A stretch of 64,000 nucleotides of DNA from Lunularia cruciata. Taxonomy: Eukaryota > Streptophyta > Marchantiopsida > Lunulariales > Lunulariaceae. The stretch spans positions 1,302,001 through 1,366,000 of the forward strand of contig OX419763.1 in the NCBI GenBank assembly GCA_948567375.1. Reading direction: 5' to 3'. Within the stretch, counting starts at the first letter, position 1. The number at the start of each line of letters is the position of its first letter. The notes beneath the pieces were generated by a model. The model was not told the origin of the DNA. It saw only the letters and a list, made by a program, of their open reading frames with translations, and did not search any database. Below, piece after piece: positions 14,299 to 61,836 of the stretch. A program made the position numbers and the translations under genes.

Positions 14299-14414
14299 TA
14301 ACAGTTTTGAGATAGAAAGAGGCAGATATGAAGAGGTGCATTGTCATTTCGGATCTGCAGGTTAGAAGAGTTGTTAGGAAATGGTATAGTTGTTATAACT
14401 ATCATTTGCTTCAC

Positions 14415-14421
14415 TATTTAA
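14415..14421 (+). promoter_or_regulatory. Second (genomic-RNA) TATA box, 3' LTR of C
   Basis: TATTTAA after the LTR frame, 674 bases before the LTR end. Confidence 0.6.
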
Positions 14422-15769: not shown

Positions 15770-16440
15770 TGTGACAACCCGGCAAATATCACTTTTGCGG
15801 TAATCGGGTAAGTAAAGTTCGTTCCCGCAGAGATACGAGTCAGAAATGTCCAAATACAAAGCAAAGTAACAATTTCAGTTCTTCTTGAGTTCTTCTTTAG
15901 TCTCTCAGGTAGAAACCACACCCAGAAGAGAGTAACAAGCACTGACTCGCAGTCTTGTCACAAATTCACACTCCAAAATCACAACTCCATCAATTATTTC
16001 CAAACAATCTTGATTTGTGATGATTCAGGCTCTCCCAAAAACGGCACTTCACTGCAAAACAACTTTGCCTCAGAATTGTGTTCCACCCTTCCACTGAAGG
16101 CACAACTTCCTCGATCGAAATTGCTTCACATCAACTTCGCACTGCACTCACAAATGCAGAATACTACCAACACTACAATTCCTCTCAGATCTGTCAAGGC
16201 ATTGCTTTGATTGCACTTCACTCAGGATCAAACACACAGAATGAAGATCAAGGCTGTGGAATCCAACATCCAACAAGCACTCTGACTTGCACTTCAAATT
16301 TCTCCAAACATTCACAAACACAATTGCAAAGTTGATACTCGGAATCAAGCTTAAGCGACGAGCACTGCTTCATAGCACTTCGCTTTATCTATTCTCAAAA
16401 ATAATGAGCACTGAACAACAAGTTCCTGCGAATGCCACTC

Positions 16441-16447
16441 TTAAATA
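16441..16447 (-). promoter_or_regulatory. Second (genomic-RNA) TATA box, LTR F
   Basis: TATTTAA on the minus strand, downstream of the LTR frame and 671 bases before the LTR end at 15770. Confidence 0.6.
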
Positions 16448-16563
16448 GTGAAGCAATCGACAGTTCTAACAACTATACCGTTCTACAACAACTGTTCTAA
16501 CCTGCAGATCCAAAATGACAATGCACCTCTTCATATCTGCCCCTTCAAATCTCAAATCGGTTA

Positions 16564-19137
16564 CTAATCCGATCCGATGTCTACTTCTTCCTCGGCTTTC
16601 AAACCCGAACCCGAAGTAATCTTACTTCCTACTGCATTTTCCTTGGGTTTCATATCTTCTACTTCTTCTACCAGATTTAACAATTCTCTTTCCTGATCTG
16701 AAATTGTACTAATAGGTAATCTATCTTACTCTCCATCTTTCTACCCACTCTTCTCTACTATTCCTGAGACCAACTCCGAAGACATTTGGATCCCGATGTT
16801 ATCTATGTCGGGTTTTGCTTTAACATCCTGCCGAAGCTTTTCTAACTCTATTCTTACTAAGTCTAATCTAATGGCAATATTGTCTTCTACTTCTAAGATC
16901 TTCCTATCTACACGAGTTCTCAACTTAATCAACAAAGCATTTAGATCTGTATCTTTCGCTTGCCTCCGCCTCGTCTCCTGCACTAACAACTTCAACTCGT
17001 GCAGACGTGTTTCTTCAATTCGAACGCTGGCCTCTGTACTTAGCATCGCATTTACTCTGAGGACTATTTCCTGCAATGGCTCTAATCTTGTCTTCCTTTC
17101 TCGTTCCCGATCTGCAAGCCATTCCTCTCTGTACATCGCCAACTCCTCTTCGAATTCGGCCTTCACCGCGTCCTTCTCTTTCTCCTTCTGTGCAACCTTT
17201 TCTTCCTGATTACGAAGTAAGTCTCGTAATCTCTCTTCTTCTCCATATCTCGCAGCCAACTCTTGCTGCCAGAGTTGCTTCTTCTCCTCCATACTCTCCA
17301 TCACTCGATCGAGCTCTTGATCCTTCGATGCTACTCTCGCCATAGCATGGATGAGCTCTACTCTTGAATCAGCAAACTGCTGCTTCAAGATTTCATGCTC
17401 CGCTACCTGTCTCTCCCTTGCGATGTCACTCTTCCTCGCAAGATCCTCTCGATAGCTCAATTCTCTCCTCAGGTCTTCGATTACCTGACTTCTCTCCATT
17501 GCCTCCAATTGCAGTACTTCTCTCTCCTTCTCACCTCGGGTCATACTCTTCTTCAACTCCGAGTTTTCTTCTTCTAATCTTGCCAACACCTGCAATACAG
17601 TTTTTACCTCCGGACATGTGGACTGCATCTCCTTCTTCTTATGTTCTAACTTTACCAACAACGGACACACCACTTCCCGCAGGTACCCCACTCCATCACT
17701 CGGGATCACTTCTTCTTGTGCGGCTACTTTTCTTTGTACTTCGTGTTCATCCGATACTTGCCTTCTTCTCTACAGTCTTCGTATCGGAATTGATGCTTCA
17801 TTGCCCGAGCTTCCTTCTACTTCTTCTGTCACTCTACTCGGTCTCGCTTCCCCCTTCGCCTTACATCTCGAGCGAATTCCTCGCTGTACTGCGATCTTCT
17901 TCTCCTTGAGCACCGGTACTTCGTCTTCCAGCGCTGCATTGTCTTTGGCTTTTACCTCAGCTTGAATTTCTTCTTCGTATTCTTCAGGCGTTGGTGCCGA
18001 GGTCATTTCTCCACCGACTTCACTATCACTGCTTGTATCTCCACTCTGCAGTGTCAGCTCAGGTTCCTCCTCACGTTCCGAGTCCTCCGTCTTGAGCTCG
18101 GCTTCGCCTTCTAAGTCTTCATCTTCCGACTCGATCACCACCATTCCTCGCCTCGGGTTATTTCTCTGCACCTTCCGAGGTTTCTTGTTTTCTTCGGCGT
18201 CTGCTTGCCGAGTTCTCTTCTTCGTCGGGGTACTTTCAATGACCTCTACGTTCTTCCCCGTCTTCAAGTAGTAATCGTCTGCGCTCCGGATTTGAAGAAT
18301 GTATTGCTGCTCCTCCACATCGACTTCCTTTCGCACATCCGGATGAAAGTGCGACACCATCCAATTCCGCTCCGCCGAGTTCAGCAAATTGAGCCTGGGA
18401 TAGAAATGCGCTGCAAATGGCACAATATAATGTGGGGGGGACCTATCCCGCAGATTCCACACCATCTGCCTCGTTCTCCCGTAAAAACACCGTGCCCAAT
18501 TAATTGGTTCTCCTACAAACAATTTGTGAAAGAACACCGCTTGGTGTTTCATCACATAGGTAGTTCTCTCCGGCTTCAGGATTGCCATCAAAGCACTCAC
18601 AATTCCTCTCTTGACAGGGTCTTTGTAACTTTCTACCTTGTACCCATTCTTTGTTCTCTTCGACAAGAAGGCATCTCTCACCTCCTGAGTTTCTTGGGCT
18701 ATCTCCCCTTTCCCCAAGAATGTGGCCCCCTGCTCCGAGCCTGCCTCCTTCCCGAGTACGAGTCTCCAATCCGACTCTGTCCAGCGAGCCGGATTTCCTC
18801 TCTTCCCTTTGTCCTCGGGACCATCGAGACATTTACTCTCGATGATTTCTGTCATGAATCCTGGAAAGCTTATGTTCCAATTCCATGCCAGAAAGGTGAT
18901 CCGAAGTCGGCTCAAGACTTTGATCCTCGCTACTACATCTAATCTCCGAATTGCATGATTTCTCACTGCAAATTCGGAGTTCTTCTTCTCTCCTCCCATC
19001 TCTTCTGCTTTCTTTCGGTCTCTTGATTTCTCTCTCTTGACTTCCCCCTTGTGCACTAACACAAGTCCAACTCTATTTCCCTTTCCACGATCACCTGCAA
19101 GACGACTCCTCAGCGGCGAAGGAAAATTGCTTGACAT
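16564..19137 (-). pseudogene. LTR-encoded coiled-coil protein, subfamily I, best copy (858 codons, three nonsense)
   Basis: From ATG 19137 (MSSNFPSPLRSRLAGDRG) to TAG 16566-16564 the frame is continuous with three internal nonsense codons (17772-17770, 16743-16741, 16728-16726); the first is CTGCAG changed to CTGTAG. Upstream ATG 19191 is in frame but lies before the TATA box, so 19137 is preferred. Residues about 50-290 form a globular domain: WTESDWRLVLGKEAGSEQGA, EPINWARCFYGRTRQMVW (near 207) and PPHYIVPFAAHFY (near 233). Residues 290-460 are an acidic/basic linker (TLQSGDTSSDSEVGGE). Residues 480-770 are heptad-rich coiled coil including LHELKLLVQETRRRQAKD. The tail ends DIGSD. There is no signal peptide, membrane segment or catalytic motif that I recognise. 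A DNA- or Gag-binding accessory role is only a guess. Confidence 0.85.
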
Positions 19138-19158
19138 TTCGTCGTTGCAGTCTCGATT

Positions 19159-19164
19159 TTTATA
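19159..19164 (-). promoter_or_regulatory. First TATA box, upstream of the LTR-encoded frame (LTR F)
   Basis: On the minus strand, CTCTATAAAAATCG with TATAAA starting 27 bases before the ATG at 19137. The same block CTCTATAAAAATTG occurs in the LTRs of A and H. Confidence 0.65.
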
Positions 19165-19553
19165 GAGTTGCACTTCTTCGTCTTCCGTCACTTCGAGTTT
19201 CTACCGAGAAATCACACCTCCTGCATGCACCCGTTACTGTCGCCTCACCTTCACGCGTATGAGCCACCAATTTTGAAACCACCCCTTCTTGAGTTTCTCG
19301 CCCCGACGAAAGGTTGTTAGACTGTCTTTGAGTTGGGTTGAGCTCCCCTTCCCGATCCGAAGACAATTTACTTCGTATCGTTTGCTGACACGGCATTTCA
19401 GAGTACTTCGCCTTATGACCCGAGGCCACTTTACTTTGGGTTTCACCCCGAAGACAGTTTTTGTCGTCTTCTTCGACCAACCAGGCGCAATCCGACCTCT
19501 CTATACACTTCTTCGGCTTTATTTAAAAAAAAACAAAAAATGTGGGCACCACA

Positions 19554-20080: not shown

Positions 20081-21408
20081 TTTTGGACATTGCCCTTACT
20101 TTCTTGATGGCCAAACTAAGCTATTTCTTGTACAACTTATTGTCCTCCCATAGTTGCTTGAATGTCACGTTTGCACTCGTGGATGCCAAATCCGTCACAA
20201 TATCATATTGCAGTACTCTTCCCAACTTCACCTTCTTCAACTTCTTTTTCATATTCAAAGACTCACCTTGTTTGAGTTGGGCCTTGGGTCACTTCAATAT
20301 CATGATAGGAGTACTAGTAGTCTTGACCCAAGGTTCTTTAGGTTTGCTCACCTCAACTTGTATCAAGTCCTTGACTTTGGATCTGATGTCTGCCGGAAAG
20401 ACTAGAGGCTTTGTCTTTGTATCCTCTTCCAAACTCATCTCCCAAGTCCTTTGTACTACTTCTAGGACTTCTTTTGCAAAGCTTTAGCTTTGGCTTTTGT
20501 AAGAATCTTCTCCTCGTTTGCAATAAGAATTGCTTTTGGGTGCAACCTCTTTGCCTCTCATGAAGATGAAGTAGTACTCAGTTCCTCAGGGTCACACTTC
20601 TTCTTGCCCATGCGTGTCTCAACTTTCAATGTCCGGCCATTCTCCTTCTAGAGCCGGACTCCCTTCTTAAGGTCTCTCTCTTCCTCAAGTGTTAAACAAT
20701 TTACAGCAGTGTCTCCTTTTGACTACATTGCTGCATGCTCAGCTTGGATCTATACATATTTTACATGCGGTTTTGGGTTGGGTGGATGACGACATGATTT
20801 GCCCGTATGACCAGATTCTTTACAATTCCTACATAGGAAGACATACCCAATTTGCCATCTTGGCTTTGGACAGTTTGGAGACCAATGCCCCATCAAGCCA
20901 CAATTGTAACATGCCATGGTGCAACATTTTGGGGCTGATTTTGGCTGCCCATTGGTGGTCTTCATGGACACGCATTGGGGTTATACTCCCTTGTTCCATA
21001 CCTCAAACCTTGGTACAATATGCTTGTTGGAGGTTGTACCTCTTGAGTTTGGTTCACCACCTCTTATTCCTCTTCGTGGTTCCATCTTGGAACCCAATCA
21101 ATCTGTTGCATTGGAAATGTATTACGAGTATTGCATTTTGTGTTTGCATGGCCTGACTTGCCACATGCTGTGCACCATACGTTTGATCTGCTGAATGAAG
21201 GAGGCTTTCTTTGGTCCTTCATCCCAATCATCTGGATCCGAAAACTCCACAAAACTTCAAACTCTTTTATAAGAGTATCCAGCTTATTGTCTGCCTTTTG
21301 TACATTGTTTGCTAGCGGTGTTAATAGTTTCTTTTCTCTATGTCTTTGTATTCTTCTTGGCTTTGACTCTTTGTTGGATTCCAAAGAAGAACTTGAAGAT
21401 GTGGAGGA
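20081..21408 (-). pseudogene. gag: gag C-terminal half of element B, with three intact zinc knuckles
   Basis: On the minus strand: a Ser-rich linker (SSTSSSSSLESNKESKPRR), knuckle 1 WCTACGKSGHANTKC (near 21160), knuckle 2 CYNCGLMGHWSPNC (near 20905) and knuckle 3 CRNCKESGHTGKSC (near 20845), all with the four metal ligands. The acidic/lysine-rich tail follows to IYHIE. The left part of this gag continues at 35302 because element A is inserted at 21409 (target GAGGA). Frameshifts are present between segments. Confidence 0.85.
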
Positions 21409-21792
21409 TGTGGTACCCACATTTTTTGTTTGTTTCAAAATTTGGAAGAAGAAGTGTATAGAGAAGTCAAATTGCGCCTGTATGGCCAAAGAAGGCAAAG
21501 AAAAGTGTCCTTGGGATGAAACCCGAGGTAACATGGCTTCGGGTCATAAGGCAAGGTACTCGGAATAGCCTTGTCAGCATACAACCCAAAGTAAGGAGTC
21601 TTTGTATAGGGGATGCTCAACCCGAGGCGAGGACAATGTAACAACTTTCCTTCGGGGTGAGATATTCAAGAAGGGACTGTTCAAAAATGGTGGTCATACG
21701 CATAAAGGACACTTGACGGTGACAAGAGCATGCAAGAGGTGTGATTACTTGGTAGAAATTTGAATTGAAGAAAGATGAAGAAGGCACGACTC

Positions 21793-21798
21793 TATAAA
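21793..21798 (+). promoter_or_regulatory. First TATA box, 5' LTR of A
   Basis: CTCTATAAAAATTG with TATAAA 27 bases before ATG 21820. Confidence 0.65.
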
Positions 21799-21819
21799 AA
21801 TTGGGCTAGAGACGAAGCA

Positions 21820-24406
21820 ATGACAAGCAATTTTCCCTTGCAGTTAAGAAGTCGTCTTGTAGGAGATCATGGGAAGGGAAGTAGAGTTGAAGACACGCTG
21901 GTGTGTAGAGAAGAATTCAAGAGAGGTAATCCAGGAATCAGTAGGAAGAATAGTCCCCAGCCCAAAGTTGAAGAGAGAAAGATGGGAGCAGGGAAGAAGA
22001 ATTCAAATTTGCCGTGAGAAATCATGCAATTCGGAGGTTAGATGTGATTGCAAGAATTGGAGTCTTGAGCAGGCTTTGGATCACATTCTTGGCATGGAAC
22101 GGGAATGTTAGCTTTCTTGGGTTCATGACTAAGATCATCGAGAGTAGATGTCTCAATGGGCCCCAAAGAAGAAGGGAAGAGAGGTAATCCGGCTCATTGG
22201 ATAGAGTCAGATTGGAGGTTAGTACTCAGAATAGAAGCAGGCACGGAGCATGGTGCCACATTCTTGGAGAAGGGTGAAGTAGCAAAAGAAACCCTGGAGG
22301 TGAGAGATGCTTTCTCTTTGAAGCGCACAAAGAATGGTTACAAAGTAGAGAGCTACAAGGACCATGTCAAGAAAGGGATCGTGAGTGCTCTAATGGCAAT
22401 CTTGAAGCCGCAGAGAACAACTTATGTGATGAAGCACCAAGCAGTGTTCTTCCATAAGATGTTTGCAAGAGAGCCAATTAATTGGGCAAAATGTTTTCAT
22501 GGGAGAACGAGAGAGATGGTATGGAATTTGTGGGATAAGTTGCCTCCACATTACATTGTGCCGTTTGCAGCTCATTTCTATCTCGGCCTGAACTTGCTCA
22601 ATGCAACAGAGCGCAATAGGATGGTGTCACATTTCCATCCCGACTTAAGAAGAAATGTTGATGCAAAGGAGCAGCAATACATTCTTCAGATCAGGAGCAG
22701 TGATGAGTACTATGCACAGATGGGGAAGAGTGTGCAGTTGGAAGTGAGTACTCCAAAGTCAAAGAAGAGGAGTCGACAAGGAGAAGGAGAAGAAGTCAAG
22801 AAAGTAAGACCTTGGAAGGCTAGAAGAGTAAACCCAAGGAAAGGAATGGTGGTAATCACGTCATTGGAAGAAGAATCGAAAGGCGAAGCCAAGTGCAAGT
22901 CCAAAGTATCGGAAAGAGATGAAGAACCCAAGTTCACACTGCAAAGTGGAGACACAAGTAGTGATAGCAACGATGGAGTGGAGATAACATTGGTACCCAA
23001 GGAAGAGAAAGCCAAGATGGAGATGGAGGAGAAAGGTAACTCAAAATGGGAAGACAAAGTGCCAAAGCAAGAGGAGAAGAGAGTTACCATTCAAAGAGGA
23101 TTTTTTTCTAGGTGAAAGGCAAAGTGTGGAGCGGGGCCGAGTAAGGTAAGAGAAGAGGAGGATGAAAGTTTGGGCAGCAAAGCATCCATTCCTTTAAGGT
23201 GACTGCGGCTTAGAAGACAAGTGTTGAGTGAGGAAGAGGTGAAGAAGGAGATCACTCCACAAGTTGAGGTAACTCCGAGTGAAGGAGTGGAGTACCAGCG
23301 GGAGGTTGTGTGCCCATTATTAGTAAAGTTAGAGCACAAGATGAAGGAGATGCAGTTGAAGTGTCCAAAGGTGAAGACTGTGTTGCAGGTGTTAGCACAA
23401 TTAGAAGAGGAGAACTTGGAGTTGAAGAAGAGTATAATCCAAGGTGAGGAGGAAATGGAAGTACTACGAGTAGATGGAGTAGTACAAAATCAAGTAATTG
23501 AGAACTTGAGGAGAGAAGCAAGGAATCAAGAGGAACTAATAGAGCAGAACATCATAGCAAGGGAAAGACAAATAGCTGAGTATGAAATCTTGAAGCAGTA
23601 TGCTGATTCAAGACTAGATATTATCCATGCTATGGCAAGAGTAGCAGAGAAAGAGCAAGAGCTCGATATGGTGATGGAGAGTGAAGAGGAGAAGAAGCAA
23701 TTGTGGCAATGAGAGTTGATAGTGAGGTATAGAGAGGAAGAAAGGTTGAGAGAGTTACTTTGCAATTAGGAGGAAAAGATTGTGCAAAAAGAGAAGGAGA
23801 AGGAAGCTGTGAAAGTTGAGTTCAAAGCAGAATTGGCAATGTACAGAGAAGATTGGTTTGCAGATCGACACCGAGAGAGGAAAATGAGATTGGAGCCATT
23901 CAAGGAGATCATGATTAAGATAAATGCGATGCTAAGTACAGAGGCTAGTGTGCACATTGAAGAGACGAGACTGCACGAGTTGAAGTTGTTGGTGCAGGAG
24001 ACGAGGAGGAGCAAAGAACAAAGACTTGAATGCCTTACTGATTAGTCTAAGAACTCGTGTAGATAGAAAGATATTGGAGGTAGAAGACAATATCACAATC
24101 AGATTAGACTTAGTCAAATTAGAGATAGATAAACTTTGGAAGGATGCTAGAGCAAAACCCAAAGTAGATAACATAGTAGTGCAGATGTCTTTGGAGTTAC
24201 CATTGGAGACATTGGAGAAGAATGGGTCGGGAGATAAGGAGTTAGATAGATTACCCACTAGTGGAATTGCAGATCAGGAAAGAGAATTGTTAGATTTGGT
24301 AGAGGAATTAGGAGTTGTGAAACCCGAGGATAGAGTAGTATTGAGTGTAGTTACTTCAAGATTGGATTTGAAAGCAGAGGAAGAAGTAGACATCGGATTG
24401 GAGTAG
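21820..24406 (+). pseudogene. LTR-encoded coiled-coil protein, subfamily I (5' LTR of A)
   Basis: Starts MTSNFPLQLRSRLVGDHG at 21820. The same frame is kept to about 24010, with nonsense codons at 22015, 23113, 23203, 23710 and 23767. The globular domain carries EPINWAKCFHGRTREMVW and PPHYIVPFAAHFYLGLNLL (22470-22610). The linker has TLQSGDTSSDSNDG, and the coiled coil runs from 23280. At about 24010 the LHELKLLVQETRR block is followed by SKEQRLE instead of QAKDTDLNALL, a frameshift also present in the 3' LTR (34170). It was therefore inherited from the parent and the C-terminal part was already out of frame before this copy inserted. Confidence 0.82.
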
Positions 24407-24728
24407 GAACAGTTTTGAGATTTCACAATCAGATTAGACTTAGTCAAATTATAGATAAATAAACTTTGGAAGGATTTCAAAGCAAAACCCAAAGTAGATA
24501 ACATAGGAGTGCAGATGTCTTTGGAGAAGAATGGATCAGGAGATAAGGAGTTAGATAGATTACCCACTAGTTGAATTGCAAATCAAGAAAGAGAATTGTT
24601 AGATTTGGTAGAGGAATTAGGAGTTGTGAAACCCAAGGATAGAGTAGTACTGAGTGAAGTTACTTCTGGATTGGGTTTGAAAGCCGAGGAAGAAGTAGAC
24701 ATCGGATCAGAGTAGAAAGAGTTTTGAG
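24093..24728 (+). repeat. 330-bp direct tandem duplication in the 5' LTR of A
   Basis: Copy 1 begins TCACAATCAGATTAGACTTA at 24093 and copy 2 with the same 20 bases at 24423. Both run through DKLWKDARAKP, LEKNGSGDKELDRLP and the end of the LTR frame. The 3' LTR has a single copy (34257 on), so the duplication arose after insertion of A. Confidence 0.88.
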
Positions 24729-24831
24729 ATTTGAAGAGGTAGATATGAAGAGGTGCATTGTCATTTTGGATCTGCAAGTTAGAAGAGTTGTTAGGAAACG
24801 ATATAGTTGTTAGAATTGTTGTTTGCTTCAA

Positions 24832-24838
24832 TATTTAA
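24832..24838 (+). promoter_or_regulatory. Second (genomic-RNA) TATA box, 5' LTR of A
   Basis: TATTTAA followed by aggaggcattcac, 557 bases before the internal region. Confidence 0.6.
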
Positions 24839-25401
24839 AGGAGGCATTCACAGAAATATGTTGTCTAGTGCTCATAATTTCTGAGAATAGATAAAGCGAA
24901 GTGCTGTGAAGTAGTGCTCGTCGCTTGAGCTTGATTTTGAGTATCAACATTGTGATTGTGTTTGTGAGTGTGGAGAAATTTGAAGTGGAAGTCAATGTGC
25001 TTGTTAGATGTTGGATTCCGTAGCCTTGATATTCATTCTGTGTGTTTGATCCTGAGTGAAGAGCAATTGGAGCAATGCCTGGACAGATCTGAGAGGAATC
25101 ATCGTGTTAGTAGTATTCTGCATTTGTGAGTGTAGAATACTACCAACACTTGATGTGAAGCATTTTTGATTGAGTAAGTTGTGCCTTCAGTGGAGAGGTG
25201 GAACACAATTCTGAGGCAAAGTTGTTTTGCAGTGAAGTGCCATTTTTAGGCGAGCCTGAATCATCACAATCAAGATTGTTTGGAAAGAATTGTTACTTTT
25301 TGACTTTGTATTTGACCAATTCTAACTCATATCTCTACGGGAACAAACTTTACTTACCCGATTACCTCAAAAGTGATATTGCCAAGTTGTCACATGATTT
25401 T

Positions 25402-25419
25402 TGGCACCGGTGGCTAAGA
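25402..25419 (+). promoter_or_regulatory. Primer-binding site, tRNA-Asp type, degenerate (element A)
   Basis: TGGCACCGGTGGCTAAGA, 7 bases after the LTR end, aligns with the sites of C and H but has several changes in its second half. Confidence 0.75.
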
Positions 25420-25479
25420 ATACAAATCTCGGAAGTGGAAGAATACAAGCCAAATTCAAAACTGATCAAAGCAATATGA

Positions 25480-28140
25480 ATGTCTACATCAAGAGAACAA
25501 CAAGAAGAGAGAGTTCAAAGACAAGCATTGCATTGTGAAGAAGACAAACGTCTAAAGATCCAAGCTACTTTCTACAAAACCAAACAAGAGGTGTTGGACT
25601 TTCAACTCCTTCACAAAGTGCAAGAAGCCCTACAAGAAGAACTTGACTTAAAGAAACGTGAAGGTGGTTGGAAAGGCTACTTTGCATCCCCATCTTCCAA
25701 AAAGAAGAAAGACTCGAGTAGCCAAACATATTCATTTCGGCCCTGTACACCAACTTCCCCTAGAGCTGTGAAGGAAGTCGCATCTCTAAAGAACTTTGTT
25801 TGAGAAAAGACAGCACGGACACTGACGGTAGAAGAGTGTCAACATCTTCTATGAAACAATGAAATATAAAGCCCGAAAGACCCAAATAGTCAAAAGGCTA
25901 GAAACACAATACAAACACATGAAATGTGAGCCTAGGCAAGGACCTAGGGCATATGACCAATCTGTAACAAATTGGTATGATGTAAACTAACCTCAATTGT
26001 TTTGAAGGAATTTTGAAGAATACATCGAAGGCGTTGAGCCTAATTCTTCCACTCAGGTTGAAGTCAACACCCTCAGAGAAGAAATTGTTGAAGAAGACCC
26101 TACTTTGAACTTGAAAAATTAGAACCTCTAGGCTGCCAATACGTCATCGATACCAGTCAACCCTTTGGCTCCATCAAGTTCAAACTTACCCGAGCTGATC
26201 CCATCAAGTCAAATGATGACTTTGTTGCTTGTCATCCAACACGCCTATCAAAAGTACAAGGGGACAGAACAAGACAAAGACCCCAATGAATTCATCAAAG
26301 AATTCAAAGTCATCTCCTTTGCTAACAAGGAGCATGACTTGGCGGATTGACTATGCATTTTCCCAAGTCTGCTCCAAAAGAAAGCTCAGAGCTAGTACAC
26401 CCATGTAACTCAGAAGAGGTTTGTACCGGCGGACTGGGCTGACTTGAGAAACAATTTCTTGGAAAAATTCCAAGAAGTTGATTATGACATGAGTGTCTTC
26501 ACGGCACTCAACGATTTAGACATAGGCAAGAAGGAGAAGTTGAGAGACTACTCTGAGCGGTTCAGGGCGCTCTTGAACTGAGTCTCGAAACAATCAGGGG
26601 TGGTGGGTTACTCCAATGCCCAAGCCATTACCTGGTTCTTGGGAGGACTTTCACTAGAGATTCGGATCTTTGCAAGGGAGAGGAATGTAACTTCCCTTGA
26701 CAAGGTACTCAAACATGTTGCCCACTGCGAGGGGGCTCACTCTCACTCTATTGGCAATTGAAGAAACCGGGAGAAGAAAGGCAAGAAGCCTAGGAGAGCT
26801 TCTCACAATACATCCCCTTCTTTGGAGAAATCCTCCACGTCTTCAGGCTCTTCTTTGGAATCCAAAGAAGAATCAAAACCAAGATGAGTACAAAGACGTA
26901 GGGGTAAGAAACCAGTGACTCCCCCAACAAAGAATGTACATAAGGCTAATACTAAGCTAGACGCCCTCATCAAGGAGTTTTTGGATTTTAAGATCCAGAT
27001 GATTGGGGCAAAGGACCGAAGGAAGCCCCCAACATTTGGCAAATCCAATGTATGGTGCACCGCATATGGCAAGTCAGGCTATGCAAACACGGAATGCAAT
27101 ACTCATAATGCATTCTAGGTGCAGCAGATTGATTGGGTTCCGGGATGGAACCAGCAAGAGGAAGAAGAGGCGGTGTACCAAACTCAAGAGGTATAGCCTC
27201 AAGCGAGCACATCATATCAGGGTCCGAGGTTCGGACCAAGGGAGTATAACCCCAATGCTCCTCCACAAAGACCACCAATGGGCAACCAAAATCAACCTCA
27301 GAATGTTGCACCGGAGCATGTTACAATTGTGGTTTGATGGGACATTGGTCTCCAAATGTCTAGAGCCAAGAAGGCAAATTGGGTACATTCCCGCTTTGTG
27401 GAAATTGCAAAGGATCGGGTCCTACAGGCAACCAATACCCTCACCCACCAAACCCAAAGCCACTTGTAAAGTATGTATAGACCCCGGCTGAGTGTGCAGC
27501 ACTGCAAGTGAAGTGGGACACAATTGTAAATTATATAACACTTGAGGAGGAAAGACTTCAAGAAGGGAGTCCGGCCTCGGAAGGAGAATGGCCAGACCTT
27601 GAAATTTTGAAAGTTGAGACACGCAATAATAAGAAGAAGCATGATCCCAAAGAGCTGAGTATGACCTCATCGTCTTCTAGAAAGGCAAAGAGATTGCGCC
27701 CAAAAGCAATCATTTCTGCTAAGGAGGAAAAGATCCTTGCTAAAGCCAAAGCTAAAGCCTTGGAGAAAAAACTCAAGGAAGCAATACTTAGGACTTGGGA
27801 AATGAGTTTGGAGGAGGAGACAAAGACAAAGCCTCCAATTTTTTTGGCGGACATCCGATCCGAAGTGAAGGGTCTGATCCAAGCCAAGGTGGGCCAACCC
27901 AAAGAACCTTGGGTCAAGACCACTAGCAATCCCGTCACCATTCTGAAGCGTCCCGAAGTCAAATTTGAACATGGAGAGACTTGGAAACCAAAGCCAAAGG
28001 TGAAGATGGTTAAATTGGGAGGAGTACTCCAATACAATATTGTAGCAAATTTGGCAACCAAAAATGCCAACCTCACATTTAAGCAATTGTGGGAAGACAT
28101 CAAGCTGTACAAGAGGTAGCTGAATTAGGCCCTCAAGAAA
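25480..28140 (+). pseudogene. gag: gag of element A (decayed)
   Basis: Open from ATG 25480 (MSTSREQQEERVQRQ) to 25803. A family-specific insertion of about 130 bp, not seen in C or H (near 25860-25990), interrupts the next part. The gag domain (KYKGTEQDKDPNEFIKEFKV) is near 26255. The linker contains an in-frame TAG at 27194-27196 that is also present in H. Zinc knuckle 1 is damaged (CTAYGKSGYANTEC near 27055). Knuckles 2 and 3 near 27315-27435 are damaged too. The Lys/Glu-rich tail is open at 27508-28119 (203 codons). It is not functional. Confidence 0.83.
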
Positions 28141-28900
28141 GTAAGGTCGATGTCAAAGAAAGACTTGCCCGCTATATATCATATTGAGCAAGAAGATCTA
28201 GGATCTCTTGAGGTCAACACAGAGATTGCAGGGTGCATGATCACATCCATACCCATCGATTTGAGGTCGGAGGTGAATGTCACGACCAAAGATACTGCAA
28301 ATTGACTGGAGTATCATACGTTTGAGCCAACACCCCGAGTCTTGAAAAATTGCAGACCAAACCAGGAGACGGCCATTGGGCATGCTGTCAAACATTACCA
28401 CAATCATTGGAGGGGTGCCCTTCACATTGAACTACATTTTGTTGTGACCAGTGACCAAGACTGGTTACCTTCTATTGATCAAACGTTCTGGTTGTACAGT
28501 GCCCAAGTTGTGGTGGATTGGCACTAGCAGAAGTTACGGTTCAAGGACATTTTGTCCGAAGACCAGAAGCTAGTAACTATGAGTTGGACAAAGGTTCCCC
28601 ATCTTGGGGAAACTAGTTTGTCAAAAGATGAGGACAAATCCGAAGACTCATTGTCTTTGTCCTCAAACAAATTCAAAGACAAAGTCCAAGTCAATTACTT
28701 GGAATGCTACCTGGTGGATGTCAAAGATGAAGATCCATGTGACCTTGCCTCGGGAGAACCTGACTTGGAGGGAGGTTTGATGGCAGCTTGCCTCGGGTTA
28801 AGCTGAGTAAGCCACATTGAAGGAGTCATCAATCCCAATGACTGTCAAGATGTTGTCTTGACTGAAGGGAAAATTTTAAAATTTTCAAAGACAGTCACTT
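28141..28900 (+). pseudogene. pol: Protease and acidic linker of element A
   Basis: IYHIEQEDLGS near 28175 opens the region. The active-site block reads IDLRSEVNV (28255), with the catalytic Asp but no Ser/Thr-Gly after it. A stop lies at 28302. YHTFEPTPRVLK and the YSAQVVVDWH strand follow at 28495-28525, with a frameshift between. The acidic linker is at 28600-28780, then GVINPNDCQDVVLTEGK, the RT entry. Confidence 0.8.
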
Positions 28901-31643
28901 CGGAGGAGTTTGCAGGATACACTGCCCTGTTTATAGAATTCCATGATGTATTTGCCTGGTCTATCAATCAAATGCTGGGTATTCCATGAGAATTTGGAGA
29001 AAACTGGATTGATCTAGTTGAAGGTCAGTTCCGGTTTGGCAGAGACAATATCTTTGAACCTGAAGTACTCCCTTTTGGTGAAAGATGAAATCGACAAGTA
29101 CTTAGGGGCCAAAATCACCTTCCCTGTCTTAAGCAGTCTTAAGCAGTGAGAGAGTCTCCCCCATTGTCATTGTACCAAAGAAGAAAACATGGAAGATCCG
29201 AGTGTGCCAAGACTTCCGCAAATTGAATGTAGTCACAAGGAAGGATCATCATCCCTTGCCTTTTACCGATACCATTTTGGACCAAGTAGCTGATCACCCT
29301 TGTTATAGTTTTCTTGATGAATTTTCAAGATACAATCAAGTATCCATCTGAGAAACGGACAAGGATAAAACCACATTCACGACCAATTGGAGCACCTTTG
29401 CTTACAATCAAATGCCCTTTAGGTTGTGTAATGCTCCAGGTACTTTCCAACAGATGATGAATTCAATCTTCAAGGATTTCTTGTGCAAATTTGTGGAAGT
29501 TTTCATTGATGATTTTTGTGTGTTTGGGCGAAGAGATGTACATTTGGATTACCTTTGCCAAACTTTTGAAAGGTGTCGTTTGCTGATTTGTCATTACACT
29601 CGGAGAAATGCTTCTTTGCCATGAAGGAAGGAATTCTTCTGGGGCATCGGGTATCAAGCCAAGGTATTGAAGTTGATGTCAAGAAGGTCAAAGTAATCTC
29701 AGCTTTGGAAAATCCCCCAAGAACATCTGGGAGTTGAGAGCCTTCTTGGGACATGTTGGATACTACAGATGCCTTGTTTCGAACTATGTGGTGCTTGCTA
29801 CACCCCTTACAAAGCTTCTGAAGAAATCCGAAGAAGCAAATCAAGAAGAAGCTTTCCAAGTGTTGAAGAAGAAACTGGTTGAAGCACCAGTTATGAGGGC
29901 CCCAAATTGGGACATCCCTTTTCATGTATATGTGGATACTTCATCCTTGGAAATCAGAGTTGTCTTAAGTCAGAAGGACAAGGAGGAGAAGGACTACCCG
30001 GCATATTATGCAAGCCAACAACTTTCAGTTTCTGAAGAGAACTATTCAATGACTGAAAGAGAAGCACTCAAAATGGTGTATGCCTGCAAGAAATTTTGCC
30101 ACTACCTGCTGGGATACAAGTTTGTCTTCTATGTTGACCATTACGTATTGCAACATTTGGTCAAGAAGGCAGATTTGTCCGGGCAAATTGCAAGATGGAT
30201 CTTGTTGTTGCAAGAATTCACATAAATTCACATACACTGTACAAGTAAGGAAGAGAGCTTTGCATTTGAATGCAAACTTTCTGTCCAGGTTAGAAAATCA
30301 AGCCAGGAATGGGAAATTGATGATCGGTTCCCTGATGAAGAGTTATATCAATTAACAGCAATGCGAAGTACAAGGTATGCAGCAAAATATCATTATCTAC
30401 ATACTCTCCATTGTCCTGAAGGGCTGGACCCGGAGTAGAGGGCAGTCTCTCTCAAGGAAATGGGGCCGTATCAACTAAAACACAACATTTTATTCAAGAT
30501 GGGCAAAGACAAAGTACTTCGGCAATGCTTGGAGTCATACAAAGTCGGAGGTGTAATTGAGTCTTTACACTTTGAAGCATGGGGAGGACACTATGCTCTG
30601 AAGAATACTGTAAAGAAGATTCTTTCCTTGGGGTATTGGTGGCCTACAATGAACAAACATACGTATGCCCATATCTAAAGCTATGATGCTTGTCAAAGAA
30701 TGGGGAAGCCGATGGCTACTTCTCAATGGCCTTTGAGACCAATTCTACCCTTGCCCCATTTGGGGAATTGATTTTGTGGGTCCCATTCAACTAGTGACCA
30801 AGTCACAACAAAGAGATACATTTTGGTTTGCACGGACTATGCTACCAAGATGGTCAAAGCTAAAGCAACTCACAGAGATGATGCCCAAACCGTGGTGGAA
30901 TTTTTCTTTCAAAACATCATCTCTCAATAAGGGTGTCCTCTAGAAGTGGTCAGTGATAGAGGGACACATCTTTTGAACTTATGATTTAGGCGTTAACCAA
31001 GTACTTCCAAATTTAACATCGGAAGACGACTCCTTATAACCCAAAAGCAAGTAGCTTAACGGAAAAGGTGAATGGGTTACTGTCAATTATGCCTATGATT
31101 GGGATACAAAATTACCAGCCACGTTGTGGGCATATAGAACAACAGAAATGATCACAACCAAACAAACTCCATACTTCTTGACATATGGCTTGCATCCTAT
31201 ACTACCAATTGAAATTGAAGTACCGACATATCGGATTCTTTGCAAAGAACGATTGTTGGAGGAAGAAAGCCAGGATCTTCAGATCCATCAACTAATGTGG
31301 TTAGAAGAAAAAAGAGACAATGCAATACAAACCACAAAGAAGTACAAGAGCAAAGGAAAGTCAGGCACAATAAGCATATCAAGTCTGTGGATGTGTGCAA
31401 AGGAGATTTGGTTTTGTTATACGACAATCACCAAATATTTTTTCCAGGCAATCTGCATTTGAGATGGATGGGGCCTTATTGAGTTCTTCATCTTTATGAA
31501 AATGGGTCCGTTCAACTTGCAGACCTGGAAGGCAATCCTTTTGCCACTTGAGTAAATGGGTAGAGAGTTTGGAGATATTGGACCATAACTCGGAAGTCTC
31601 TAAGACACCCAAAGTCTTTGTTCGTGGGGATGCTCACATTTGA
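28901..31643 (+). pseudogene. pol: Reverse transcriptase-RNase H-integrase of element A
   Basis: The RT entry EEFAGYTALFIEFHDVFAWS keeps a His codon (28942-28944) where C and H have amber. The catalytic block VEVFIDDFCVFGRRDVHLDY (29490-29550) is intact, but frames shift before and after it. Thumb and RNase H are open at 29734-30225 with YVDTSS, TEREAL and VDHYVL. A 9-10 base repeat (attcacata) at about 30220-30235 breaks the frame. The integrase zinc region is at 30540-30700 (SYDAC, one Cys lost). The core WGIDFVGPI block is shortened near 30760, and the C-terminus runs to TGA 31641-31643. It is inactive. Confidence 0.86.
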
Positions 31644-31654
31644 GGGAGGGGGTA
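31642..31654 (+). promoter_or_regulatory. Polypurine tract, element A
   Basis: GAGGGAGGGGGTA directly before the LTR start, overlapping the pol stop codon as in H and C. Confidence 0.9.
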
Positions 31655-32037
31655 TGTGGTACCCACATTTTTTGCTTTTTTAAAATTTGGAAGAAGAAGT
31701 GTATAGAGAAGGTGAATTGCGCTTGTATGGCCAAAGAAGGCAAAGAAAAGTGTCCTTAGGATGAAACTTGAGGTAATGTGGCTTTGGGTCATAAGGCAAG
31801 GTACTTGGAATTGCCATATCAGCATACAGCTCAAAGTAAGGAGTCTTTGTATCGGGGGTGCTCAATCCAAGGCAAGGACAATGTAACAACTTTCCTTTAG
31901 GGCAAGATATTCAAGAAGGGACCGTTCAAAAATGGCGGTCATACGCGTAAAGGACACTTGATAGTGATAGGAGCATGCAAGAGGTGTGATTTCTTGGTAG
32001 AAATTTGAATTAAAGAAAGACAAAGAAGGTGCGACTC

Positions 32038-32043
32038 TATAAA
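32038..32043 (+). promoter_or_regulatory. First TATA box, 3' LTR of A
   Basis: CTCTATAAAAATTG with TATAAA 27 bases before ATG 32065. Confidence 0.63.
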
Positions 32044-32064
32044 AATTGGGCCCAAGACGAAGCA

Positions 32065-34509
32065 ATGACAAGCAATTTTCCCTTGCCATTAAGAAGTCGT
32101 CTTGCAGGAGATCATGGGAAGGGAAGTAGAGTCAAAGACGCACTGGTGTGTAGAGAAGAATTCGAGAGAGCTAATCCGGGAATCAGTAGGAAGAATAGTC
32201 CCCAACCCAGATTGGAAGAGAGAAAGATGGGAGTAGGGAAGAAGAATTCTGAATTTTCCATGAAGAATCATGCGATTCAGAGGTTAGATGTGATTGCAAG
32301 AATTGAAGTCTTGAGCAGGCTTTTGATCCCATTCTTGGCATGGAACTGGAATGTTAGCTTTCCAAGGTTCATGACTGAAATCATCAAGAGTAGATGTCTT
32401 GATGGCCCCAAGGAAGAAAGGAAGAGAGGTAATCCGGCTCGCTGGACAGAGTCGGATTGGAGGTAAGTACTCGGAAGAGAAGCAGGCATTGAGCATGGTG
32501 CCACATTCTTGGGGAAGGGTGGAGTAGCAGAAGAAACCCAAGAGGGGAGAGATGCTTTCTCTTCAAAGCGCATGAAGAATGGTTACAAAGTAGAGAGCTA
32601 CAAGGATCCTATCAAGAGAGGGATCATGAGTGCTCTAATGGCAATCTTGAAGCCGGAGAGAACAACTTATGTGATGAAGCACCAAGCGGTGTTCTTCCAA
32701 GGGATGTTTGTAGGAGAGCCAATTAACTGGGCAAAGTGTTTTCATGGGAGAATGAGAAAGATGGTATGGAATTTGCCGGATAAGTTGCCTCCACATTACA
32801 TTGTGCCGTTTGCTCATTTCTATCTTGGACTAAACTTGCTCAATGGGGCAGAGCGCAATAGGATGGGTGTCGCATCCTGACTTAAGAAGAGATGTTGACA
32901 CGGAGGAGCAGCAATACATTTTTCAGATCAGGAGCAGTGATGAGTACAATGCACAGACAAGGAAGAGTGTGCAGTTGGAAGTGAGTACTCCAAAGTCAAA
33001 GAAGAGGAGTCGACAAGGAGAAGGAGAAGAAGTCAAGAAAATAAGACCTTGGAAGGCTAGAAGAGTAAACCCAAGGAAAGGAATAGTGGTAATCATGTCG
33101 TCGGAGGAAGAATTTGAAGGCAAAGCCGAGTGCAAGTCCGAAGACTCAGAAAGTGATGAAGAACCCGAGTTCAAACTGCAGAGTGGACACACGAGTAGTG
33201 ATTGCGACGACGGAGGGGAGATGACATTGGTACCCAAGGAAGAGAAAGCCAGGATGGAGATGGAGGAGAAAGGTAACCCAAAATTGGAAGCCAGAGTGGT
33301 AGAGCAAGAAGAGAATAGAGTTACCATTCAAAGAGGAGTTCATTCTAGGCAAAAGGTGAAGTGTGGAGCAGGGCCGAGTAAGGTAAGAGAAGAGGAGGAT
33401 GAAAGTTTGGGGAGCAAAGCATCCATTCTTATAAGGCAACTACGGCTTAGAAGGCAAGTGTTGAGTGAGGAAGAGGTGAAGAAGGAGATCACTCTGCAAG
33501 TCGAGGTAACTCCAAGTGAAGGAGTGGAGTACCTATGGGAGGTTGTGTGCCCATAATTAGTAAAGTTAGAGCACAAGATGAAGGAGATGCAGTTGAAGTG
33601 TCCAGAGGTGAAGATTGTGTTGTAGGTGTAAGCACGATTAGAAGAAGAGAATTTGGAGTTGAAGAAGAGTATAATCCGAGGTGAGGAGGAAAGGGAAGTA
33701 CTACGAGTAGATGCAATAGTATAGAATCAAGTGATTGAGAACTTGAGGAGAGAAGCAAGGAATTGGGAGGAGCTGATAGAGCAGAACATCATAGCAAGGG
33801 AAGGACAAATAGCTGAGTATGAAATCTTGAAGCAGCAGTTTGCTGATTCAAGACTAGAAATTATCCATGCTATGGCAAGAGTAGCAGAGAAAGAGCAAGA
33901 GCTTGATAGGGTGATGGAGAGTGTAGAGGAGAAGAAGCAGCTGTGGCAATGAGAGTTAACAACGAGGTATAGAGAGGAAGGAAGGTTGAGAGAGTTACTT
34001 CGCAATCAGAGAAGATTGGATTGCAGATCAAGAATAGGAGAGGAAAATGAGATTGGAGCCATTAAAGGAGATCGTGATCAAGATAAATGTGATGCTAAGT
34101 ACAGAGGCTAGTGTGCACATTGAAGAGACAAGACTTCACGAGTTGAAGTTGTTGGTGCAGGAGACGAGGAGGAGCAAAGAACAAAGGCTTGAATGCCTTA
34201 CTGATTAGTCTAAGAACTCGTGTAGATAGAAAGATATTGGAGGTAGAAGACAATATCACAATCAGATTAGACTTAGTCAAATTAAAGATAGATAAACTTT
34301 GGAAGGATGCCAGAGCAAAACCCGAAGTAGATAACATAGGAGTGCAGATGTCTTTGGAGTTACCATTGGAGACATTGGAGAAGAATGGGTCGGGAGATAA
34401 GGAGTTAGATAGATTACCCACTAGTGGAATTGAGTGAGTAGTATTGAGTGAAGTTACTTTGGGGTCGAGTTTGAAAGCCGAGGAAGAAGTAGACATCCAA
34501 TTGGAGTAG
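32065..34509 (+). pseudogene. LTR-encoded coiled-coil protein, subfamily I (3' LTR of A)
   Basis: Starts MTSNFPLPLRSRLAGDHG at 32065, open to a TAA at 32464 (Leu codon TTA in the 5' LTR). It reopens in the same frame at 32509-32850 with EPINWAKCFHGRMRKMVW and PPHYIVPFAHFYLG. A frameshift near 32850 moves the linker and coiled coil to another frame (32843-33556, 33731-33952). About 80 bases of coiled coil are deleted near 34010. The SKEQRLE frameshift near 34170 is shared with the 5' LTR. It ends DIQLE at TAG 34507-34509. Confidence 0.8.
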
Positions 34510-34625
34510 AAACAGTTTTGAGATTTGAAGAGGCAGATATGAAGAGGTGCATTGTCATTTTGGATCTGCAAGTTAGAAGAGTTGTTAGGAAACGGTATAG
34601 TTGTTAGAATTGTTGTTTGTTTTAG

Positions 34626-34632
34626 TATTTAA
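34626..34632 (+). promoter_or_regulatory. Second (genomic-RNA) TATA box, 3' LTR of A
   Basis: TATTTAA followed by aggagac, after the LTR frame. Confidence 0.58.
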
Positions 34633-35301
34633 AGGAGACATTTGCAGTAATATGTTGTTTAGTGCTCATAATTTCTAAGAATAGATAAAGTGAAGTGTTG
34701 TGAAGTAGTGTTCGTTGCTTGAGCTTGATTTCGAGTATCAACATTGTGATTGTGTTTGTGAATGTGTAGAGAAATTTGAAGTGCAAGTCAATGTGCTTGT
34801 TGGATGTTGGATTCTACAACCTATCTTTATTCTGTGTGTTTGATCTTGAGTGAAGAACAATCAGAGCAATGCCTTGATAGATCTAAGAGAATTGTAGTGT
34901 TGGTAGTATTCTGCATTTGTGAGTGTAGCACAATGTTGAATTGAAGCAATTTTGATCAAGGAAGTTGTGCCTTCACTGGAGGGATGGAACACAATTTTGA
35001 GGCAAAGTAGTTTTGCAGTGAAGTGCCGTTTTCAGAAGAGCCTGAATCATCACAATCAAGATTGTTTGGAAAGAATTGAAGGTGTTGTGATTAAGGAGTG
35101 TGAATTGGTGACAAGCTTACGGATCAGTGCTTGTTACTCTCTTCTAGGTGTGGTTTCTACCTGGGAGATTAAAGACGCAACCAAGAAGAACTACATTGTT
35201 ACTGTTTGACTTCGTATTTGACCAATTCTGACTCATATTTCTGCGGGAACGAACTTTACTTACCCAATTACCGCAAAAGTGATATTTGTCGGGTTGTCAT
35301 A

Positions 35302-36530
35302 GAGGATTCCTCCAAAGAAAGGGATGTACTACAAGAAGCTCTTTGTCTTGGCTTCTTGCCTTTCTTCTCCTTGATTCCATCGATTACTAGAAGAATGAGA
35401 GTGAGCTGCCCTGTATTGGGTGACATGTTTGAGGACTTTGATCATGGAAGTTACATTCCTCTCCTTAGCAAAGATGCAAATCTTTGGTGACAATCCTCCA
35501 AGGAACCAAGTAATGGCTTGGGCATCGGAGTAACCAACCACACCGGATCGCTTTAGAACACGGTTCAATAGGGCATGAACTACACAAAGTAGTCTCTCAA
35601 CTTCTCCTTCTTTCCTCTGTCTAGATTGTTGAGTGCCATGAAGACACTCATATCATAATCAACTTCCCAGAATCCTTCTAGGAAATTGTTTCTAAAGTCT
35701 GCCTACTCAGTTGGTACAAACCTCTTCTAGGTTACATGCATGTACCAACTCCAAGCCTTCTTGTGGAGCAGACTCAGGACAATCCGCTGGCAATCTGTAG
35801 AGTCATGTTCCTTGTTGGCAAAGGAAATGAATTGAATTCTTTGATGAATTCATCAGGGTCTTCATTTTTTTTTGTTCCCTTATACTTCTAATAGGTGTGT
35901 TGGGTGATAGGTTACAAAGTCATTGTTTGGGTTTTGAGGAATCAGCTGTCATAAGGTTGAACTTGATGGACCCAAGGAACTGGCTGATATTGAAGTTGTA
36001 TTGACAGCCCAAGAGTTCCAATTGGTCAAGTTCAAAGTAAGGTCTTCATCGATAGATTCTTTTTCTTTGATAGTGTCGACTTTGACTAGAAATAGAGTAA
36101 GAGGTTCAACACTTCCGGAGTGCTCTTGAAAATTCCCTTGAGCCAACAAAGGAATTTTTTGTAAGAGATGTTGGTACTCTTCTTCTGCTAAGATTTGTGC
36201 TGTCTTTTCATAAATAAATTTCTTTATATATTTGACTTGCTTTATAACTTTTAGGGAAGTTGGTGTACTGGGTCATAACAAGTATGTCTGCTTGCTGGCG
36301 TCTTTCTTCTTTGTGGAATTTGGAGATGAGAAGTAGTCTTACCACCCGCCTTTATGTTTCTTTTGTTTGAGTTCTTTCAAGGCTTCTTGAACTTTCTAAA
36401 GAAGTTGAAAGTCCAACACCTCCCCTTTGGTTTTGTCAAGAGTAGATTGGATCTTCTGGCGTTCTTCTTCTTCGTGGTGCAAAGTTCATCTTTGAGCTCT
36501 CTCTTCCCATTGTTCTCTTAATGCAGGCAT
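35302..36530 (-). pseudogene. gag: gag N-terminal half of element B
   Basis: Read on the minus strand from ATG 36530 (MPALREQWEERAQR) through the basic coiled N-terminus, KFIYEKTAQ, the DPTLNLTNWNSW-type motif (ORF 36149-35949), the gag domain, PITWFLGGLSPKICIFAKER (35490) and the Ser-rich linker, where element A is inserted. It continues at 21408. Frames are broken in several places. Confidence 0.86.
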
Positions 36531-61832: not shown

Positions 61833-61836
61833 AGTA

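Follow-up and report, generated by a model that had tools for sequence, protein, structure and literature searches.

The window analysed, a stretch of 64,000 nucleotides from Lunularia cruciata, contains a retrotransposon (element A, forward strand, 21409–35301) in which a Ty3/gypsy interior lies between a pair of long terminal repeats (LTRs). Sequence reading identified GAGGA target-site duplications (TSDs) directly to the left (21404–21408) and right (35302–35306) of the element. The 5′ LTR (3986 bp; 21409–25394) was delimited by its TGTGG...TCACA ends and by homology to positions 31655–35301, while the 3′ LTR (3647 bp; 31655–35301) was defined by the same homology and by direct reading; its terminus, ..CATA, is one change away from the TG..CA ends. 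A primer binding site (PBS; TGGCACCGGTGGC) starts seven bases past the 5′ LTR (25402–25414), and a polypurine tract (PPT; GAGGGAGGGGGTA) abuts the 3′ LTR (31642–31654). An earlier note on this DNA had described exact duplications on both sides, a PBS and a PPT in these places, all of which were found as stated, and the LTR lengths that it gave were reproduced from the borders read here. Aligned over 3519 bases (the 5′ LTR having been entered two bases too long), the LTR pair shows 90.8% identity and a K2P distance of 0.100.

The interior of element A contains, on the forward strand, (i) a gag piece (26396–26578; Retrotrans_gag, E 6e-5, 23.6 bits, cut-off 24.1), (ii) a reverse transcriptase (RT) piece (29352–29621; RVT_1, E 6e-6, 26.5 bits, cut-off 29.6), (iii) RNase H (29677–30222; RT_RNaseH_2, E 1.5e-28) and (iv) an integrase zinc-binding piece (30439–30675; Integrase_H2C2, E 4e-5, 24.0 bits, cut-off 25.5). 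The RNase H match is clear and the other three fall just below the Pfam cut-offs; the order of domains (gag-RT-RH-INT) is that of gypsy elements. Stop codons interrupt the coding sequence, and no aspartic protease was identified in the interior by the Pfam domain search. The LTR ends, TSD, PBS, PPT and domain order all fit, and element A is a Ty3/gypsy LTR retrotransposon. An FIDDFCVFG-type RT motif was also spotted by eye; we take this type of motif to be a candidate pointer to the Athila/Tat (non-chromovirus) lineage.

Both LTRs of element A contain the same long frame in a decayed state. The copy in the 5′ LTR spans 21820–24406 (forward strand), with the first possible ATG at 21820 and open pieces, according to ORF reading, at 22129–23115, 23203–23712 and 23984–24406; the copy in the 3′ LTR, also on the forward strand, was located by sequence reading at 32065–34506. 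The occurrence of one frame in both LTRs, as proposed in the earlier note, is therefore real, but the frame is broken there by stops and frameshifts. On the reverse strand, a solo LTR of a younger family (copy D; 3784 bp; 15770–19553; TSD AAAGG on both sides) carries the frame as 455 + 342 codons with one TAG (16744–19137, reverse strand; alternative start ATG at 18999). The same frame is present in a 3′ LTR of the divergent family B (12057–15094, forward strand), which is preceded by a PPT, and shares 48% amino acid identity with that of A. Broken pieces of the frame occur in a forward-strand solo LTR at 3912–9268 (TSD AGTTG on both sides), inside which a 1915-bp forward-strand LTR without the frame is nested (6279–8193; TSD GATAG on both sides). 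The nested LTR has the same R-U5-like end and a different U3, which is non-coding and unlike the U3 of frame-bearing LTRs. A second element on the forward strand has an apparent rearranged 5′ LTR region (48609–55475, with the LTR start at 48609 and a PBS after its end) and a 3′ LTR that starts at 60486 after a PPT; pieces of the frame are found in both of its LTR regions. PBS sequences in the window also follow positions 532 and 55475. Two frame-carrying solo LTRs with their own TSDs (15770–19553 and 3912–9268) are present in the window, in agreement with the earlier description. The additional statement that every solo LTR keeps one copy is too strong, because the LTR at 6279–8193 has no gene and because the frame itself served to find the solo LTRs.

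The placement of the frame relative to the LTR borders recurs genome-wide. In 24 of 29 frame-bearing loci homology starts at the TGTGG LTR end, ~0.7 kb before the query begins, and in 3 of these 24 a PPT stands directly before the LTR start. The right ends of 20 loci revealed 17 solo LTRs and one 5′ LTR (locus L051) followed by a PBS analogous to that of element A; the other two loci could be assigned to neither class. TSDs of the 17 solo LTRs are exact 5-bp repeats in 11 cases, agree in 4 of 5 bases in four and are poorer in two. The younger full elements E1 and E3 have TSDs on both sides (GCCTT and GTCAT, respectively) and a PPT before the 3′ LTR, and a PPT-LTR junction query was matched by 40/40 scored candidates (the best 40 of 3315 candidates in the genome). 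The frame lies downstream of the PPT in element A, the family-B copy B12, the second element of the window, L055, L060, L064 and E1–E3; the position of plant additional ORFs, upstream of the PPT and the 3′ LTR, is not the one it occupies. Since the homology of frame loci begins at the LTR end and their right ends are mostly those of solo LTRs, the frame lies inside the LTR rather than in the element interior. The loci were found through the frame and the scored matches are the best-matching ones, so that gene presence and intactness are not randomly sampled; the genome searches list only the best-scoring repeats, among which a single-copy homologue could not have shown up.

The same borders bear on the reading that the frame is an ordinary gene of the interior, of accessory or env-like type, which lies after pol and before a short LTR and is misplaced by mis-set borders. 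Conservation between families is highest in the final ~0.8 kb (R-U5-like), as would be expected of a short true LTR, and in plants the majority of accessory frames sit between pol and the 3′ LTR (PMC7264820, in the available part of its text). However, the TSDs of the 11 solo LTRs and the two full elements flank the whole unit, which refutes such an arrangement, and the PPT, which directly adjoins the LTR start, precedes the frame; we regard an interior gene as exceedingly improbable. Neither a frame outside a true LTR of 0.8 kb nor a failure of the TSDs to recur, the two outcomes that the earlier note had named as contrary to its view, was found.

The LTR frame goes far beyond what chance would produce, and several comparisons show that it is a real gene under purifying selection at the protein level. 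In an unguided nucleotide alignment of D with the 5′ LTR copy of element A (A5), substitutions are distributed over codon positions as 158/130/315 (791 sites each), and fixed differences between D and 24 A-type copies as 110/77/267. In the two pairs for which the flanks of the frame were compared (D-A5 and D-A3), neither side has such a codon-position bias, and the third-position excess between D and the A-type copies is periodic only at LTR ~601–2700; the gene start and end are approximate, because no periodicity is seen upstream of LTR ~600 or downstream of ~2700. The first ATG (MSSNF/MTSNF) receives no support from codon periodicity and is missing in one intact frame, in the 3′ LTR of E1; a peptide similar to this start, MSSxxPxPxxS, recurs in family B. 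Matches from query residue 9–10 were considered as a mark of the start codon and dropped, since they begin there because the frame of the window copy breaks just upstream of 22156.

Protein-guided comparison of eight window copies gave dN/dS values of 0.12–0.54 in the 17 of 28 pairs with finite dS, the other 11 being saturated; deep family pairs have values of about 0.12–0.22. The same formula applied to gag-pol pieces yielded 0.06–0.69 (median 0.245; 16 rows). Between families, amino acid identity is 40–50% across 200+ codons in one frame. In the younger family, 93/93 scored matches (the best 93 of 26,270 candidates, a set that contains the window copy) extend over essentially the full 455 codons, and 40 of these 93 have no stop within them. 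An unbroken frame of 878/879 codons occurs in at least 10 younger-family matches, and unbroken 878-codon-type frames were confirmed in the 3′ LTRs of two elements of this family, in which recent differences look neutral (singletons 28/37/35 by codon phase). An accidental open frame in purine-rich repeat-derived sequence, coding for nothing, would accord with the purine-rich composition, with antisense frames that are long too and with the near-neutral recent changes in family D. Such an origin is nevertheless very unlikely, given the confinement of the third-position excess to the frame in unguided alignments, deep dN/dS values similar to those of gag-pol, the identity retained between families and the recurrence of the 878-codon open frame.

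The predicted LTR protein (~810–860 aa) consists of a mostly helical N-domain, a basic motif of the RKR(S/T) type, an acidic linker and a coiled coil. The linker and coiled coil, already proposed in the earlier note, are borne out on copy D by a net charge of −15 at residues 351–400 and by enrichment of LIVM at heptad a/d positions in the C-terminal part. No homologues were found in a collection of 5.8 billion proteins at E ≤ 0.001, nor at E ≤ 1, and Pfam and PDB sequence searches with this protein gave nothing or chance-level matches. A by-eye likeness to PF20167, presumably the “putative plant transposon protein” domain, was dropped; PF20167 is absent from the 11 families matched by any of 37 members. 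Two AlphaFold2 models are of low confidence (pLDDT 50.9 and 54.5) and the second had no fold match in the PDB at E ≤ 0.001; for these reasons no fold is claimed. Since there is no detectable homologue and no fold match, and the models are poor, function is a guess from composition, and the favoured reading, that the protein may be a nuclear trans-acting regulator, is a weak one. Alternatively, the gene might have been captured from the host and be carried as cargo, its role being cellular and not one that serves the element. Retroelements do capture genes (PMC7264820, available part), and the protein is unlike the known TE proteins in the libraries searched, but selection kept across families that differ by ~50–60% at the protein level suggests use by the element, and we consider capture unlikely.

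Candidate promoters were recognised on both sides of the frame. Upstream, TATAAAA (P1; 21793–21799, forward strand; LTR +385) is present at LTR 360–410 in 34 of 39 LTR copies (+390 in D, +384 in A3 and +388 in B12), and is missing by exact match in five, among them the gene-less LTR and L097, the second copy of family B. The motif decays slowly because it contains no methylatable base. Downstream, TATTTAA (P2; 24832–24838, forward strand), the candidate genomic-RNA promoter, is kept in the three copies D, A3 and B12 and is followed there, at a fixed spacing of 54 bp, by the motif AATAGA. The frame thus lies wholly between the PPT and the putative promoter TATTTAA, in the U3 of both LTRs, which is a sag-type layout. 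It is quite possible, if somewhat short of even odds, that the 3′ U3 is the only source of expression of the gene, in nef or sag style, as the last cistron of a genomic or spliced RNA, the 5′ and solo copies being silent: in the 5′ LTR the frame precedes the candidate genomic promoter, in the RNA it is downstream of pol, and P1 is a TATA match only. The shared position of TATAAAA in D, A3 and B12 argues against this, as D and B12 are only 46–59% identical over LTR 1–600 and yet have kept it.

The closest parallel in position is mouse mammary tumour virus, whose sag gene lies in the U3 of the LTR. As here, an accessory frame is wholly inside U3 and is thus present in both LTRs; host and protein differ, as do the dimensions (LTR ~1.3 kb and gene ~320 codons, compared to ~3.7 kb and ~810–860 codons). 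In foamy viruses (tas/bet) and lentiviruses (nef), regulatory or accessory frames likewise reach into U3, but from upstream and with partial overlap of the 3′ LTR, whereas here the whole gene is downstream of the PPT. LARDs and other non-autonomous elements have LTRs of several kb. Element A resembles LARDs in this respect and is not one of them: its interior encodes gag-pol and its LTR is coding.

The available parts of the sources on plant LTR elements place additional ORFs in the internal region, mostly between pol and the 3′ LTR (PMC7264820). Athila, Bagy2, Grande, RIRE2 and Retand share with the present elements a conserved extra frame in most family copies, but there the frames are internal and, in the portions of text available, none is described inside an LTR (PMC7264820, PMC11963269). 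Retrosat2, RIRE3 and RIRE8 of grasses, according to the accessible text, combine LTRs of about 3 kb or more with a selected extra frame (ORF0, Ka below Ks), which differs in lying upstream of the gag-pol frame, outside the LTR (PMC3485330). Extra ORFs of rotifers are described in the elements and not in their LTRs, as far as the available part of the source goes (PMC5408684). The accessible text of the literature searched, which covers few subscription journals, contained no recognisable account of a plant element with a coding LTR.

The best explanation of these results, to which we assign a probability of roughly 85%, is a large and abundant Ty3/gypsy group with an accessory protein gene of ~810–860 codons in U3. 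LTRs measure 3.6–4.0 kb in the A and D copies measured and 3.0 kb in the family-B copy. Plus-strand synthesis from a PPT upstream of the gene would duplicate the one U3 that the genomic RNA carries; with the gene downstream of the PPT, the known reverse-transcription cycle would therefore leave two identical copies in each new provirus. Recombination between LTRs would then produce a solo LTR retaining one gene copy. The TATA motif at LTR ~+385 may direct a short mRNA ending at the normal LTR poly(A) site, and each LTR could therefore be a self-contained promoter-gene-terminator unit. The product might be a nuclear, oligomeric trans-acting factor that aids the expression of its own family or its escape from silencing, on the model of the regulatory proteins of certain retroviruses, whose genes lie within or across U3. 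That every frame-bearing LTR, solo LTRs included, is a full expression unit, with its own TATA promoter and a shared poly(A) end, whose product is a nuclear trans-acting protein belonging to a new family, is a tentative proposal, doubtful at present.

The general view of LTRs is that they are regulatory DNA without coding function, and open frames inside them tend to be dismissed. In this plant Ty3/gypsy group, U3 contains a gene that is large, old and under selection, which breaks with that view and provides a clear example of reverse transcription itself doubling an accessory gene. Two questions become testable: whether solo LTRs can remain a source of a trans-acting protein of the element, and whether a protein encoded in the LTR lies behind bursts of retrotransposons in the host; Ty3/Gypsy bursts are described, in the available part of the source, for the 580 Mb assembly of L. 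cruciata (PMC9985172). If the proposal is true, the formation of solo LTRs, usually regarded as the death of an element, would preserve the regulator gene as dispersed sources, which could drive or defend bursts of the family and support derivatives with a gene-less U3.

The description of element A, a Ty3/gypsy retrotransposon (21409–35301), in the earlier note was borne out when its target duplications, LTR borders, PBS and PPT were read directly from the sequence. GAGGA is present on both flanks. The 5′ LTR (21409–25394) ends in TCACA, with TGGCACCGGTGGC seven bases past this end, and GAGGGAGGGGGTA directly precedes the second LTR, which starts at 31655 (3′ LTR, 31655–35301). Across 3519 aligned bases, the two LTRs share 90.8% identity and differ by 246 transitions and 78 transversions (K2P 0.100). 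The interior contains a clear RNase H match (1.5e-28, Pfam), and gag, RT and integrase matches slightly below the Pfam cut-offs; the domains follow the gypsy order and many stops interrupt the coding sequence.

The 566-Mb assembly (74 contigs, including the window) was searched with two queries derived from this element. The PPT-LTR junction matched in all 40 scored candidates (3315 candidates at first look), and the protein encoded by the ~800-codon LTR frame in all 122 scored (23,169 at first look), five of the 122 being stop-free. Thirty loci, including the window copy, were cut out, and the other 29 were used for border analysis. Homology began at the LTR end in 24 of them and elsewhere in five. 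A PPT precedes the LTR start in three of the 24, while the flanks of the remainder differ; three of the remainder (L056, L059 and L062) lie inside or adjoin another LTR copy. Right ends, fetched for 20 of the 24 (omitting the three PPT loci and L062), identified 17 solo LTRs, one 5′ LTR (L051, continuing into TGATTTTTGGCACCGTTGC) and two unassigned copies (L049, L067). The 5-bp flanks of the solo LTRs matched exactly in 11/17, at four of five bases in 4/17 and poorly in two (L041 and L061), those of L041 agreeing after a one-base shift. Since flank duplications recur and homology starts at LTR ends, the borders are genuine and the frame sits within them, as the earlier note had claimed. These loci were retrieved via the frame and are therefore uninformative on the share of LTRs without it.

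A younger family is represented in the window by solo LTR D (15770–19553, minus strand), with AAAGG on each flank. Its frame comprises 455 + 342 open codons separated by a single TAG. The D protein query matched in 93/93 scored candidates (of 26,270), each match spanning essentially residues 1–455; 40 of the 93, window copy included, are stop-free over this region, and in ten the stop-to-stop frame runs uninterrupted for 878 or 879 codons. Pairs of matches on the same strand, ten in all, are spaced 9.9–10.3 kb apart, as expected of 5′ and 3′ LTRs. For three of these pairs (E1–E3), LTR stretches were fetched and identity was measured over the initial ~2.87 kb. E1 has GCCTT at both ends, a PPT ahead of the 3′ LTR and 97.7% LTR identity; E3 has GTCAT at both ends, a PPT and 97.5% identity. 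In both (n = 2), the frame is intact in the 3′ LTR (878 open codons) and broken in the 5′ LTR (547 codons in E1). The 3′ U3 is the copy transmitted by reverse transcription. E2 (G000:C1:81047934–81061755) has a PPT ahead of both fetched LTRs, 99.6% LTR identity and frames of 678 and 740 codons; its form resembles a tandem, LTR-interior-LTR-interior-LTR. Among seven D-type copies, singleton differences are even across codon positions (28/37/35) and those shared between copies favour third positions (19/17/31), a pattern that neutral decay after insertion combined with selection between insertions would give.

More divergent frames are also present. The 3′ LTR at 12057–15094 (B12), preceded by a PPT, carries a frame with 48% aa identity to that of element A (230 codons), and the minus-strand copy at 46.8–47.6 kb one with 41% aa identity over 253 codons. 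Queries from these pieces matched in 150/150 scored candidates each (of 14,811 and 14,154, respectively). The gene must therefore be old and diverse. Placement of the divergent frames in LTRs was checked in the B family, for B12, with its PPT immediately before, and for L097, where homology begins at TGTGGTACCCACA. A second start-like FLAWNWNLSFPGFM segment near the 46–48 kb copy (48331–48498, minus) is apparently a scrambled or duplicated piece.

Selection on the frame was examined in eight window copies by protein-guided alignment (28 pairs). Seventeen pairs with finite dS gave dN/dS of 0.12–0.54, the other 11 being saturated at synonymous sites; the highest values (0.30–0.54) belong to the three lowest-dS pairs, and the other finite pairs gave 0.12–0.22. 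The identical formula applied to gag-pol pieces gave 0.06–0.69 (median 0.245; 16 rows, excluding identical rows and those of <45 columns). Plain nucleotide alignments, which favour no reading frame, revealed a third-position excess in 5/5 pairs tried: differences by codon position between D and the element A LTRs were 158/130/315 (A5) and 154/128/317 (A3), and between D and further copies 90/74/208 (G49), 133/86/259 (F4) and 188/145/266 (B12). Compared with 24 A-type copies (sites where at least 80% of copies differ from D), the counts were 110/77/267, and the excess extends from LTR position ~600 to ~2700; it was absent up- and downstream of the frame in segments of the D-A5 and D-A3 pairs. 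Despite acquired stops, 8/29 loci, a non-random sample of best protein matches, keep essentially the whole ~800-codon frame in one reading frame. Frame stops at 18 A-type loci are mostly TAG, as would be expected from C-to-T decay of methylated CAG, unlike in the younger family, where TGA is about as frequent.

No relative of the encoded protein was found in protein, Pfam, PDB sequence or fold searches. Residues 47–300 of the D protein are mostly helical in both predicted models (pLDDT 50.9 and 54.5, too poor for further use), followed by a basic KKRTRQ-like motif (RKRTKP in the B-type copy, RKRSRP in the 47-kb copy) and an acidic stretch (net −15 over 351–400). The ~340 residues beyond show heptad enrichment, at best 11/16 a/d positions being LIVM versus 4.6 expected per given register (best of seven registers). 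Our best guess, a tentative one, is that the protein may be a nuclear, oligomeric regulator.

Upstream of the frame, TATAAAA occurs at LTR position 390 (D), 384 (A3) and 388 (B12), with D-B12 identity over LTR 1–600 of only 46–59%. It lies within LTR 360–410 in 34/39 copies (counting both LTRs for some elements), compared with six plus-strand occurrences in the entire window. As the motif lacks C and G, its decay is likely to be slow, and its shared position across families is the better evidence. Downstream, TATTTAA occurs at 3107 (D), 2972 (A3) and 2359 (B12), with AATAGA 54 bp further in all three, in their best-conserved LTR part. U3 would thus consist of a possible promoter (TATAAAA), the gene and a candidate genomic-RNA promoter (TATTTAA), with R and U5 after. 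Reverse transcription copies U3 from the RNA 3′ end into both LTRs, which accounts for two gene copies per insertion and one in a solo LTR.

In arrangement, we rate the gene as paralleling MMTV sag, an accessory gene placed in U3, and as differing from plant additional ORFs, which, in the portions of the sources consulted, are situated in the internal region of the element (PMC7264820), as is the extra ORF of Retrosat2 (PMC3485330). No plant report of a coding LTR was recognised in the literature searched, which does not prove its absence.

The LTR regions of a second element in the window (48609–55475 and 60486–64000) share a common insertion and repeated LTR pieces, 51596–53728 matching 61878–64000 at 95.5%. 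Probably, the rearrangement is older than the insertion of the element, or both regions acquired it via conversion. An ACCCTAA plant telomere-type array (61836–61880, 6.6 copies) lies at the insertion edge in the 3′ LTR region.

One LTR in the window (6279–8193, 1915 bp, GATAG on both flanks), nested inside a solo LTR (3912–9268, AGTTG on both flanks), is gene-less: it has no stop-free frame of >119 codons. Its final 985 bases are shared with D at 91%, and its first 870 match none of D, A5 or B12. This joining of a D-like R-U5 to an unrelated non-coding U3 indicates that U3 modules can be exchanged, and gene-less members may depend on other members.
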